Source of the DNA: Pseudomonas poae
Lineage (GTDB): Bacteria; Pseudomonadota; Gammaproteobacteria; Pseudomonadales; Pseudomonadaceae
Direction: 5' to 3'
Assembly: GCA_004000515.1 (NCBI GenBank)
Contig: CP034537.1
Coordinates: forward strand, 1,054,001-1,118,000
DNA: 64,000 bases
Of this stretch, positions 20,333 to 24,489 are shown one piece after another (positions within the stretch are counted from its first letter, which is position 1; each line of letters begins with the position of its first letter). Both the position numbers and the translations under genes were made by a program. The notes under the pieces are model-generated. The model worked only from the letters and a program-made list of their open reading frames with translations, was not told where the DNA came from and made no database searches.

Positions 20333-21418
20333 ATGACCATCAGCGATGCACTGCACCGTTTGTTACTCGACAACCTGACCACCGCGACCATCCTGCTCAA
20401 CGACGACCTGCGTCTTGAGTACATGAACCCGGCGGCGGAGATGCTCCTGGCCATCAGCGGCCAGCGCAGCCATGGGCAGTTCATCAGCGAATTGTTCACC
20501 GAGTCGGCCGAAGCGTTGAGCTCGTTGCGCCAGGCGGTGGAGCAGGCACACCCGTTCACCAAGCGCGAAGCGATGCTCACCGCCCTCACCGGCCAGACGC
20601 TGACCGTCGACTACGCCGTGACCCCGATCCTGAGCAACGGCGCCACCCTGCTACTGCTCGAAGTGCACCCACGTGATCGCTTGCTGCGTATCACCAAGGA
20701 AGAGGCGCAGCTGTCCAAGCAGGAGACCAGCAAGATGCTGGTGCGCGGCCTCGCCCACGAGATCAAGAACCCGCTGGGCGGCATTCGTGGCGCAGCGCAG
20801 CTGCTGGCCCGTGAACTGCCGGAAGAGCACCTCAAGGACTACACCAACGTCATCATCGAAGAAGCCGACCGCCTGCGTAATCTGGTGGACCGCATGCTCG
20901 GCTCCAACAAGCTGCCGTCCCTGGCAATGACCAACGTGCACGAAGTGCTGGAGCGCGTTTGCCAATTGGTCGAGGCCGAAAGCCAAGGTTGCATCAACCT
21001 GGTGCGCGACTACGACCCGAGCATTCCCGACGTACTGATCGATCGTGAACAGATGATCCAGGCGGTGCTCAACATCGTGCGCAACGCCATGCAGGCCATC
21101 AGCAGCCAGAACGAGCTGCGCCTGGGCCGCATCAGCCTGCGCACGCGCGCCCTGCGCCAGTTCACCATCGGCCATGTGCGCCATCGCCTGGTGACCAAGG
21201 TCGAGATCATCGACAACGGCCCGGGCATTCCTGCGGAACTCCAGGAAACCATCTTCTTTCCCATGGTCAGTGGCCGCCCGGACGGTACCGGGCTGGGCCT
21301 GGCCATTACCCAGAACATCATCAGCCAGCATCAGGGCCTGATCGAATGTGAGAGCCATCCTGGCCACACCACCTTCTCGATCTTTCTGCCACTGGAACAA
21401 GGAGCCCCATCGACATGA
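20333..21418 (+). CDS. glnL: nitrogen regulation sensor kinase NtrB
   Basis: Histidine kinase/phosphatase that controls NtrC in response to nitrogen status via PII. The 361 residues contain an N-terminal PAS domain (about 10-110), the phospho-acceptor GLAHEIKNPLGG (His142), and a C-terminal ATPase with the N box IVRNAMQA, G1 IDNGPGIP and G2 DGTGLGLAIT. It is soluble with no membrane helix. Start ATG 20333 with an AGAGG site. Its stop overlaps the glnG start (ATGA). Confidence 0.95.
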   Translation: MTISDALHRLLLDNLTTATILLNDDLRLEYMNPAAEMLLAISGQRSHGQFISELFTESAEALSSLRQAVEQAHPFTKREAMLTALTGQTLTVDYAVTPILSNGATLLLLEVHPRDRLLRITKEEAQLSKQETSKMLVRGLAHEIKNPLGGIRGAAQLLARELPEEHLKDYTNVIIEEADRLRNLVDRMLGSNKLPSLAMTNVHEVLERVCQLVEAESQGCINLVRDYDPSIPDVLIDREQMIQAVLNIVRNAMQAISSQNELRLGRISLRTRALRQFTIGHVRHRLVTKVEIIDNGPGIPAELQETIFFPMVSGRPDGTGLGLAITQNIISQHQGLIECESHPGHTTFSIFLPLEQGAPST

Positions 21419-22850
21419 GCCGTAGTGAAACTGTCTGGATCGTCGATGACGACCGTTCTATCCGCTGGGTCCTCGAGAAAGCCTTGCAACAGGAAGGCAT
21501 GACCACCCAGAGCTTCGACAGCGCCGACGGCGTGATGAGCCGCCTGGCGCGCCAGCAGCCGGACGTAATCATCTCCGACATCCGCATGCCCGGTGCCAGT
21601 GGCCTGGACCTGTTGGCCCGCATTCGTGAGCAGCACCCGCGCCTGCCGGTGATCATCATGACCGCGCACTCGGACCTGGACAGCGCTGTCGCGTCTTACC
21701 AGGGCGGTGCGTTCGAATACCTGCCCAAGCCGTTCGACGTGGACGAGGCGGTGGCGCTGGTCAAGCGCGCCAACCAGCACGCCCAGGAACAGCAGAGCCA
21801 GGAAGCGCCACCGACCCTGACCCGCACCCCGGAAATCATCGGCGAAGCGCCGGCGATGCAGGAAGTGTTTCGCGCCATCGGGCGCTTGAGCCACTCCAAC
21901 ATCACCGTGCTGATCAACGGTGAGTCGGGCACGGGTAAAGAGTTGGTGGCCCACGCCCTGCACCGTCACAGCCCACGGGCGGCCTCGCCGTTTATCGCGC
22001 TGAACATGGCGGCGATTCCAAAGGACTTGATGGAGTCCGAGCTGTTCGGCCATGAAAGGGCGCCTTCACCGGTGCGGCCAACTTGCGTCGCGGGCGTTTT
22101 GAGCAAGCTGACGGCGGCACCTTGTTCCTTGATGAAATCGGCGACATGCCGGCCGACACCCAGACCCGCCTGCTGCGGGTACTGGCGGACGGTGAGTTCT
22201 ATCGCGTCGGCGGGCACACCCCGGTCAAGGTTGACGTGCGCATCATTGCGGCGACGCACCAGAACCTGGAAACCCTGGTGCACGCGGGCAAGTTCCGTGA
22301 GGACTTGTTCCACCGCCTCAACGTGATCCGCATCCACATCCCGCGCATGTCGGACCGCCGCGAAGACATCCCGACCCTGGCCCGCCACTTCCTCAGCCGC
22401 GCCGCCCAGGAGCTGGCCGTCGAGCCGAAGCTGCTGAAAAGCGAAACCGAGGAATACCTGAAGAACCTGCCGTGGCCCGGCAACGTGCGCCAGCTGGAGA
22501 ACACCTGCCGCTGGATCACCGTCATGGCGTCCGGTCGCGAAGTGCACATCAGCGACCTGCCGCCTGAACTGCTGAGCCTGCCGCAGGACTCGGCCCCGGT
22601 GACCAACTGGGAGCAGGCGCTGCGCCAATGGGCCGACCAGGCCCTGGCTCGCGGCCAGTCGAACCTGCTGGATAGCGCCGTGCCGGCGTTCGAGCGGATC
22701 ATGATCGAGACTGCCTTGAAGCACACCGCCGGCCGCCGTCGCGATGCTGCGGTGTTGCTGGGTTGGGGGCGTAATACCCTGACGCGCAAGATCAAGGAGC
22801 TGGGGATGAAGGTGGATGGTGGGGATGATGACGAGGGTGATGAAAGCTAA
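21415..22850 (+). CDS. glnG: nitrogen regulator NtrC (one frameshift)
   Basis: Sigma-54-dependent enhancer-binding protein, about 478 residues after repair. A receiver domain with phospho-acceptor Asp55 ([10 protein letters not shown]) is followed by an AAA+ domain with Walker A GESGTGKE, then [12 protein letters not shown] and RDDI-type segments, and a Fis-type helix-turn-helix at the end ([26 protein letters not shown]). The frame breaks at 22055-22058, right at the GAFTGA loop that contacts sigma-54: CATGAAAGGGCG should read CATGAAAAGGGCG. Losing that loop would abolish activation, so this is probably a sequencing indel. Start overlaps the glnL stop. Confidence 0.94.
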
Positions 22851-22876
22851 ATCCCCAGATCCACTGAAGATCTACT

Positions 22877-22964
22877 GTGGGAGCGGGCTTGCCCGCGATG
22901 GCGGAGTGTCAGTCGCCGAATAAGTCGACTGATGCTCCGCCATCGCAGGCAAGCCAGCTCCCAC
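22877..22964. repeat. paired REP (BIME) after glnG
   Basis: GTGGGAGCGGGCTTGCCCGC (22877) and an inverted copy CATCGCAGGCAAGCCAGCTC-CCAC ending at 22964. The two arms belong to different variants (GCGGGC and GCTGGC), as at 13.55 kb. Confidence 0.88.
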
Positions 22965-23086
22965 AGTTGTTTTGTTTAAAACCACAGGCCGTGCACCGCT
23001 TGAATGCACCATGAACCGGCATCGGGCACGGTTTCATCGCCCACAATGCAGGCCCGCTTGAAAGAAACCTAAAAGCCAAAACCACC

Positions 23087-23109
23087 AAAGCCCCGCATTC
23101 CGGGGCTTT
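23087..23109 (+). terminator. hairpin between glnG and the repeat RNA
   Basis: AAAGCCCCG and CGGGGCTTT form a perfect 9-bp stem with loop CATTC. The tail is only moderately T-rich. It probably ends glnLG transcripts before the next sigma-54 promoter. Confidence 0.55.
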
Positions 23110-23148
23110 GCGCTTTATAAAGATATTTTTTAGCGTAACCAGACAACT

Positions 23149-23165
23149 CTGGCACGCGCCCTGCA
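23149..23165 (+). promoter_or_regulatory. sigma-54 promoter of the repeat RNA
   Basis: CTGGCACGCGCCCTGCA contains TGGCAC and TGCA with GG and GC separated by 10 bases, the best consensus match in the window. A start near 23175 would run straight into the hairpin repeats. Possible NtrC half-sites (GTGCACC at 22991, TGCACCAT at 23005) lie about 150 bases upstream. Confidence 0.8.
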
Positions 23166-23174
23166 ATAACCCCT

Positions 23175-23475
23175 GTACAACCCAGTTTCGGGGACCTTGG
23201 TACAGGCAGGCCGAGAATCCCCTCTTTACATCCGGGGTGCTTGATGCGAACCGCGTCGCGCTCCATACCGCTTTGGGGAACCTTGGTACAGGCAGGCCGG
23301 GGATTCCCTCTTTAACACCGAAGCCCTTGCGGCTTCACGCCGTTTTGGGAGCCCTGGTACAGGCAGGCCGGGAACTCCCTTCTTTACACCCGGGGCTTAT
23401 GTGGCTCAGCGCCCATAGCTCCAACCCGTTTTGGGGACCTTGGTACAGGCAGGCCGGGGATTCCCTCTTTATTGC
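23175..23475 (+). ncRNA. nrsZ: NrsZ-like nitrogen-regulated small RNA with four hairpin repeats
   Basis: No protein frame fits this stretch, but it holds four copies of a ~45-base unit: 23183-23230, 23269-23318, 23340-23389 and 23425-23471. All share the core GGTACAGGCAGGCCG (starting at 23199, 23285, 23356 and 23442, i.e. spaced 86, 71 and 86 bases). Each unit can fold with GGGGA or GGGA on the left pairing with TTCCC or TCCC on the right, leaving the core in the loop, and each ends in CTCTTTA or TTCTTTA. A sigma-54 promoter sits immediately upstream. P. aeruginosa NrsZ, as I recall, is an RpoN/NtrC-dependent processed RNA with repeated stem-loops located right after ntrC. The position, promoter and design match; the homology call is inference. 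The last repeat could double as the terminator. Confidence 0.75.
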
Positions 23476-23909
23476 TCTTGGAGATGGATCTCCAGCCGCC
23501 AACGGCCTTCGGCCTTCTCGCCCCTCCACTCCCCGCGCAATGGCCGAGCCGCCACCAGGTTCAGCAGCAAGCCGCCATCGGTCTTGCGGATGCGCCAATT
23601 CACATCCTTGTCATTGACCTTGAGCTGCCCACTGGCCGCTTTGCCCTGGGCGTCGAACAGCAGCGCCACGGTGCCGTCGATATGCTCGCCGTGCAGCTTG
23701 GGTTCGCTGTTGAACCACACCACCACACCGTCCGCCGCTGTATCCACCTGCTGCAGCTCGATGGGGTCCGGGGTGGTGAGGCGGCCAATCATCAGGCCCA
23801 CCATCACGCCGACAATCGCCAAAGAGCCCATGACCTTCGGCATTAGCTTCGGTCTTGGGTCCTCTTCGGGGGTAGAATGCAGCGCATCTTTACCTTCGGA
23901 GCCGTGCAT
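23469..23909 (-). CDS. hypothetical membrane-anchored protein
   Basis: 146 residues with a charged N-terminus, one transmembrane helix at about residues 28-45 (GSLAIVGVMVGLMIGRL) and a C-terminal soluble part (VVVWFNSEPKLHGEHIDGTVALLFDAQGK) probably outside the membrane. I do not recognise a family. The ATG at 23907-23909 interlocks with the divergent trmL start through a shared CATG; an ATG at 23841-23843 (MPKVMGSLAIV) is a plausible alternative. Its stop codon overlaps the end of the fourth repeat of the small RNA, so the two transcripts converge and overlap. Confidence 0.6.
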   Translation of the reverse strand: MHGSEGKDALHSTPEEDPRPKLMPKVMGSLAIVGVMVGLMIGRLTTPDPIELQQVDTAADGVVVWFNSEPKLHGEHIDGTVALLFDAQGKAASGQLKVNDKDVNWRIRKTDGGLLLNLVAARPLRGEWRGEKAEGRWRLEIHLQEQ

Positions 23910-24378: not shown

Positions 24379-24489
24379 GTGAGAGCGGGCTTTGAGCTGG
24401 CTTGCCTGCGATACGAGCACCGGTGTGTCTGTCACACCGCAGTGATGCTATCGCAGGCAAGCCAGCTCCCACAGCAAGCCCGCTCCCAC
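24379..24489. repeat. nested composite REP between trmL and secB
   Basis: An outer GTGAGAGCGGGCTT (24379) pairs with AAGCCCGCTCCCAC (ending 24489). Inside it, GAGCTGGCTTGCCTGCGAT and ATCGCAGGCAAGCCAGCTC form a second pair. Two REP variants are thus nested rather than side by side. Confidence 0.85.

Follow-up and report, generated by a model that had tools for sequence, protein, structure and literature searches.

What kind of RNA is encoded by the four near-identical hairpins that follow ntrC in Pseudomonas poae, and what might their repetition mean? The question was raised by a stretch of 64,000 nucleotides of contig CP034537.1 (the window), in which a first-pass annotation had described four repeat units directly after glnLG (ntrBC) and had likened them to NrsZ, the nitrogen-responsive small RNA of Pseudomonas. 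NrsZ of P. aeruginosa PAO1 was reportedly described by Wenner et al. in 2014.

The portions of the literature on which we drew describe P. aeruginosa NrsZ as an RNA of ~226 nt that depends on NtrBC and RpoN and is processed, with abundant species of ~40 and ~140 nt (PMC8395346, PMC9308961, PMC6321483). Its first 60 nt, with the first stem-loop, are given there as enough for activity, and the RNA is said to act on, or activate, rhlA mRNA, with ACAGGCAG as its conserved motif (PMC8395346, PMC9308961). In the corresponding part of another paper NrsZ is among the Hfq-enriched RNAs, the difference between conditions being not significant (PMC6890931). NrsZ is only cited in what we drew on of PMC7291925 and goes unmentioned in the part used of PMC9170634. 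The same portions of the NrsZ literature do not give the unit number in other species, and we make no claim that it is absent from print.

Results

A four-hairpin NrsZ downstream of ntrC

The RNA gene in the window looks like NrsZ in a version with four hairpins. A covariance search with the NrsZ model of Rfam (RF02695) gave two matches back to back in the window (86.8 and 84.7 bits, gathering score 76.9), the full-length matches covering 23179-23335 and 23336-23498; the best placement in the whole genome scored 138.7 bits. The proposed identity is thus upheld by scores above the gathering score, and the proposed place by the position of ntrC, whose stop codon ends at 22850, with the first loop 351 nt further on. 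The loop also lies downstream of ntrC in P. bananamidigenes, Pseudomonas sp. RIT623, P. lundensis, P. putida GM4FR and P. entomophila.

To follow single hairpins we used R1, a model of one hairpin made from 136 distinct units. In the 7.5-Mb genome R1 found exactly the four window units (E 1.8e-12 to 4.7e-11) and no further copies outside the array, the next-best match having 18.5 bits and E 1.2; this gap excludes chance. The 10-mer GTACAGGCAG occurs 21 times in the genome, four of them in the array, and the 17 others compare with 7 for the reversed control. Across the genus, RF02695 matched 148 of 149 genomes and exceeded its cut-off in 100 of the 149; the sole genome without NrsZ, by RF02695 or R1, was a draft of about 80 contigs (G037). 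RF02695 matched in 8/194 genomes of the order sample (3/96 genera, the window's genus included), and R1 in 102 of 148 genomes and 13 of 19 genera of the family sample. An exact ACAGGCAG was present somewhere in 12 of 74 other gamma- and betaproteobacterial ntrC loci (L029-L102); in these 74 loci no two copies lay close together and none lay within 500 nt after the ntrC match, and a Pseudomonadaceae MAG locus (L027) was likewise without such a copy. Taken together, these results indicate that nrsZ in the window is real, well conserved and a member of a family already known.

The glnG/ntrC frame itself is interrupted in the window assembly (ORFs 21415-22326 and 22083-22850). Among the long array loci, 31 gave an ntrC match that could be used, and in 30 of these the frame is open to the locus end, the window being the exception; the break could reflect either faulty assembly or a genuine loss. 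If it is real, NrsZ is likely not induced in this strain and the RNA may be silent. Two inverted repeats nearby (22875-22966 and 24398-24464), which we take to be REP-like, draw sub-threshold microRNA matches in Rfam.

Layout of the array

The features of the locus are collected in Table 1. The array region spans 23190-23474, and its four loops begin at a spacing of 86, 71 and 86 nt. Each unit hairpin has GGGA/TCCC-type outer arms, an inner stem of six to seven pairs and the loop ACAGGCAG, and four copies of GTACAGGCAGGCC lie within 23200-23455. The units, their spacing and their arms were seen as the first-pass annotation had described them, and R1 finds all four.

Table 1. Features of the nrsZ locus in the window
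Feature	Positions	Strand	Remarks
Conserved 38-bp element, TGCACC-N7-TGCACC...	22992..23029	+	Footprint in alignment of 16 relatives
Terminator-like hairpin AAAGCCCCGCATTCCGGGGCTTT, between ntrC and promoter	23087..23115	+	Nearly unchanged in 16-relative alignment
Sigma-54 promoter TGGCACG-N4-CTGCA, TGGCACGCGCCCTGCA	23150..23165	+	Sequence scoring; near-consensus
Predicted nrsZ transcript, ~300 nt	23176..23474	+	Both ends inferred: promoter; last hairpin with U-rich tail
Unit 1 hairpin	23190..23222	+	Loop 23202-23209; R1 E 2.1e-11
U-rich link and spacer hairpin 1	23223..23275	+	dG -18.5, z -2.1; in consensus fold, 7 relatives
Unit 2 hairpin	23276..23308	+	Loop 23288-23295; R1 E 1.2e-11
U-rich link and spacer hairpin 2	23309..23346	+	dG -9.0, z -2.1; in consensus fold, 7 relatives
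Unit 3 hairpin	23347..23379	+	Loop 23359-23366; R1 E 4.7e-11
U-rich link and spacer hairpin 3	23380..23432	+	dG -16.5, z -2.7; in consensus fold, 7 relatives
Unit 4 hairpin and terminal TCTTTATT tail	23433..23474	+	Loop 23445-23452; R1 E 1.8e-12
Convergent gene, function unassigned	23469-23909	-	Stop codon 23469-23471 inside nrsZ terminal U-rich tail

Folded as a whole, the 306-nt window RNA is not exceptionally stable (z -0.99; 12 of 100 shuffled versions did equally well), and in its best single-sequence fold unit 1 is paired with unit 4. Across seven four-unit relatives, the consensus fold contains four unit hairpins, three spacer hairpins and a closing pairing of the ends. These seven nearest relatives are 96% alike and showed zero pairs changed on both sides, because the sequences are too similar. 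Peptide-coding repeats were considered and rejected, the spacings being even over the three frames (82, 75 and 73 of 230).

Selection on stem and loop

Stem covariation across related genomes, which the first-pass annotation had set as a test on which its proposal could fail, was present: among the 136 distinct units, 6 of 12 stem pairs had changed on both sides. The cells with such changes numbered 42, compared to 13.6 in shuffled alignments, and 91.1% of stem cells were paired (88.0% shuffled, 32-70% in slid controls). In the second pair from the loop, for example, G-C is replaced by A-U in 19 of the 136 sequences. The number of stem pair types, a less telling measure, was 20 compared to 18.1 shuffled and was reached by 41 of 500 shuffles, and two stem pairs were unpaired in 58 and 63 of the 136 units.

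As the units had been collected by their exact loop, the constancy of the loop depends on a relaxed loop search. A single true variant loop emerged from it, at three loci of a sister genus, and no one-mismatch loop units were seen in the main genus; the other extra matches either differed from the loop at two or three positions or fell outside the array, and were judged by eye to be chance. As read from these alignments, the stem covaries while the loop ACAGGCAG stays fixed.

Spacers between the units

The first-pass annotation had held that the sequence between the units is unrelated and that only the hairpin is under selection. The former part stood: the three window spacers are mutually 50-62% identical, compared to 52% for shuffled sequences. 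The latter part does not follow, since each spacer folds into a hairpin and is conserved at the same index, the window spacers being 85-98% identical to same-index spacers in four relatives. Of the 198 spacers between units at least 66 nt apart, 195 reach a folding energy of -7 kcal/mol or better and 174 have z <= -1.5. At a spacing of 57-64 nt these numbers fall to 0/25 and 1/25, showing that the spacer hairpin is confined to some lineages; arrays with a spacing of 43-44 nt have almost no spacer. Nine neighbouring loci supplied 41 distinct spacers; in their alignment, half of the ten pairs had changed on both sides, and the outermost pair failed in 26 of 41. Judged by folding and covariation, the spacer hairpin is real and under selection in the arrays that have it, and dispensable for NrsZ.

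Promoter and upstream element

The near-consensus sigma-54 promoter that had been noticed before the first unit was confirmed by sequence, 300 bp beyond ntrC, and its GG/GC core is common to all 139 array loci; a strict sigma-54 pattern misses four of these (L138, L212, L214 and L218), all of which scoring recovers. No strict match to the sigma-54 type, the only promoter type scanned, lay between units in the array loci. With the 12-nt distance customary for sigma-54 starts, transcription is predicted to begin at about 23176.

Further upstream, a 38-bp element stands out from diverged sequence in an alignment of 16 chosen relatives. A consensus drawn from these same 16 relatives and scored on all 139 loci was found within 16 mismatches of 38 in 91/139 loci, compared to 5/139 base-shuffled stretches. 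The element ends 120 bp before the sigma-54 promoter in the window, 121-122 bp before it in the alignment rows shown and 61-62 bp in some others; in loci with a leader longer by 14 nt the figure is 135-136 bp, by arithmetic the same distance from the promoter. The exact tandem half-site TGCACC-N7-TGCACC has one occurrence in the genome, at nrsZ, and with at most one mismatch it occurs 61 times (32 for the reversed control). The NtrC palindrome, with at most two mismatches, was present in 13/139 loci compared to 8/139 shuffled, an unconvincing excess, and its best match in the window has four mismatches. The 38-bp element is a candidate NtrC binding region, differing from that palindrome.

The 3' end and its convergent gene

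A convergent gene was found in 122 loci, and in 111 of them its stop codon is placed 24-26 nt beyond the first base of the last loop; since this stop lies inside the terminal tail, the tail is under two constraints. The mean longest T run was 3.13 (n=190) in inner units 66-93 nt from the next unit. For last or single units it was 3.94 where the tail holds the convergent stop (n=111), 4.09 in a second group (n=11) and 4.0 in 17 loci lacking any convergent gene that was found, all 17 of which have four T in a row. The contrast is weaker than these runs suggest. Mean total T was 7.65 in the tails of last units with the convergent stop and 5.0 in the 17 last units without a convergent gene; inner tails had 4.08 at a spacing of 66-93 nt, near the 5.0 of those 17 last units, and 6.52 at a spacing of 57-64 nt, where they often end in CTCTTTTATT. 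In the window, the T run of the last tail is three long, shorter by one than in six aligned relatives, and for this reason we can only infer that transcription terminates at the window's last hairpin.

Unit number across genomes

The comparison of repeat number across genomes that had been suggested for this array was run on 139 array loci, comprising 135 of the main genus (of 148 matching), three of genus g3 and one of genus g2. These hold 369 exact units, with between one and eight in each genome. The numbers of genomes with one, two, three, four, five, six, seven and eight units are 32, 28, 54, 14, 7, 1, 2 and 1, respectively. The 13 weakest-matching genus genomes were left out and probably have a single unit, so that the single-unit share is understated. 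Each of the three g3 loci holds one extra unit, with the loop CCAGGCAG, outside the exact count. That 32 of 139 genomes have one exact unit indicates that a single unit can be enough.

On a coarse tree of 122 loci, built from short sequences, rooted at the midpoint and read without regard to support values, unit number required 38 parsimony changes, compared to a mean of 67 and a least value of 59 in 50 label shuffles. Unit number is thus inherited, and with 38 changes it is nevertheless labile. The window's tree neighbours repeat its kind of array (86/69/86, 86/71/86 and 86/69/84), and other genomes in the neighbourhood have two, three or five units.

Search for targets of the loop

We searched 119 genomes with the pattern GCCTGCCTGTACN{0,30}ATG, a weak test in that it takes a 12-nt perfect complement and ATG only. 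Among the matches listed, the pattern occurred in 92/119 genomes compared to 7 hits in all for the reversed control, and the matches include the nrsZ array itself read on the other strand. We examined 30 loci from the matches listed: the array accounts for 8 and the interior of long reading frames for 19, and 3 were assigned to neither (L276, L279 and L285); no recurring 5' leader with the loop complement was seen among these 30. Four matches fall in the window genome, two of them in the array.

Of the 19 in-frame matches, 2 lie in a cytochrome-like frame and 8 in one conserved membrane-protein frame with a perfect 12-nt loop complement (L275, L277, L280, L289, L294, L297, L299 and L304), which we take to be NuoN-like. 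The NuoN-like match is absent from the window genome, and this complement can be explained by protein sequence and codon use. At L276 (G078), and also in G063, the loop complement is followed by AGGGGATG and then by an open frame of 108 codons.

Discussion

We consider it probable that the nrsZ transcript is processed, that it pairs with other RNA via its loops and that more units give more active fragments. Under nitrogen limitation, phosphorylated NtrC and sigma-54 RNA polymerase would transcribe ~300 nt from about 23176. Each unit would be a self-contained module, in which a covarying stem presents the fixed loop ACAGGCAG and is followed by a short U-rich single strand; the U-rich links would be cut, and the released unit fragments would pair via their loop with RNA containing CUGCCUGU. 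Several units would yield more active fragments per transcript, so that unit number may set the dose, and the last hairpin with its U-rich tail would end transcription. From the predicted start to the end of the TCTTT link of unit 1 is 52 nt, a distance that would fit a unit-1 fragment and favours module release and base pairing. Our confidence in this mechanism is slightly lowered because the window's last tail is shorter and because the contrast between tails is partly that of the convergent stop codon.

The repeated loops might instead bind and titrate an RNA-binding protein, as RsmY and RsmZ do with RsmA, and a fixed loop on a varying stem in 1 to 8 copies would also be expected of such a protein-binding array. 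RsmY and RsmZ likewise have repeated stem-loops with a constant loop motif, and the NrsZ loop, taken together with the bases that close it, is similar to the SELEX consensus of CsrA. However, RsmA needs GGA in the hairpin loop, and GGA is absent from ACAGGCAG, the loop of all four nrsZ units; the sigma-54 promoter is a further difference from RsmY and RsmZ. A single exact unit, as in 32/139 genomes, would also make a poor sponge. Titration by a multi-copy loop, which the first-pass annotation had suggested, found no support here; the reviews, in the portions used, instead report action on rhlA mRNA, exerted in P. aeruginosa by a 60-nt fragment (PMC8395346, PMC9308961), and we regard a protein sponge as improbable.

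Much the same low probability attaches to a ladder of attenuators, in which each unit would be a leaky terminator and product lengths would be set by termination and not by cutting. The units are indeed GC-rich hairpins followed by a short T run, and at a spacing of 57-64 nt 11 of 25 inner tails read CTCTTTTATT, which is also the most frequent tail of last units. At 66-93 nt, the window's type, inner tails nevertheless have a short T run and then ACA or AACA (mean T 4.08 compared to 7.65 for last units with the convergent stop in the tail), and processing is what the consulted portions report for P. aeruginosa (PMC8395346, PMC9308961). Unit number could also be neutral, tandem copies coming and going by recombination while only the presence of at least one unit matters. 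The 38 changes on the 122-locus tree and the existence of single-unit genomes (32/139) speak for this, whereas the main genus has no one-mismatch unit, an observation that quick deletion or homogenisation could also explain; on balance we think neutrality unlikely, if still worth serious consideration.

Among known systems the window's RNA stands nearest to NrsZ of PAO1, with which it shares the position after ntrC, the sigma-54 promoter, the ACAGGCAG hairpins and the RF02695 match; it differs in having four units and a predicted ~300 nt, compared to ~226 nt in the consulted portions of the reviews. Nostoc NsiR1, according to the part used of PMC9045159, is also a tandemly repeated small RNA of nitrogen stress with units of ~60 nt. 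Its copies have their own promoters, unlike the nrsZ units, which have no sigma-54 match between them, and we claim no sequence relation.

What this study contributes is the unit counts, the lineage pattern of the spacer hairpins, the tail shared with a stop codon and the upstream element, for which no priority is claimed. The review literature, in the portions on which we drew, describes P. aeruginosa NrsZ through rhlA and names no genus-wide partner. Tentatively, and with more doubt than conviction, we suggest that NrsZ is a cassette RNA that evolves its strength by gain and loss of entire hairpins inside a single transcript, with every loop under selection, and that rhlA is not its ancestral, genus-wide partner, this being instead some conserved RNA or protein, as yet undiscovered, by which ACAGGCAG is recognised. 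A loop unchanged across the genus, on covarying stems and in 1 to 8 copies, implies a widely shared partner, and the natural variants in unit number make it possible to test dose directly in a single regulatory RNA.
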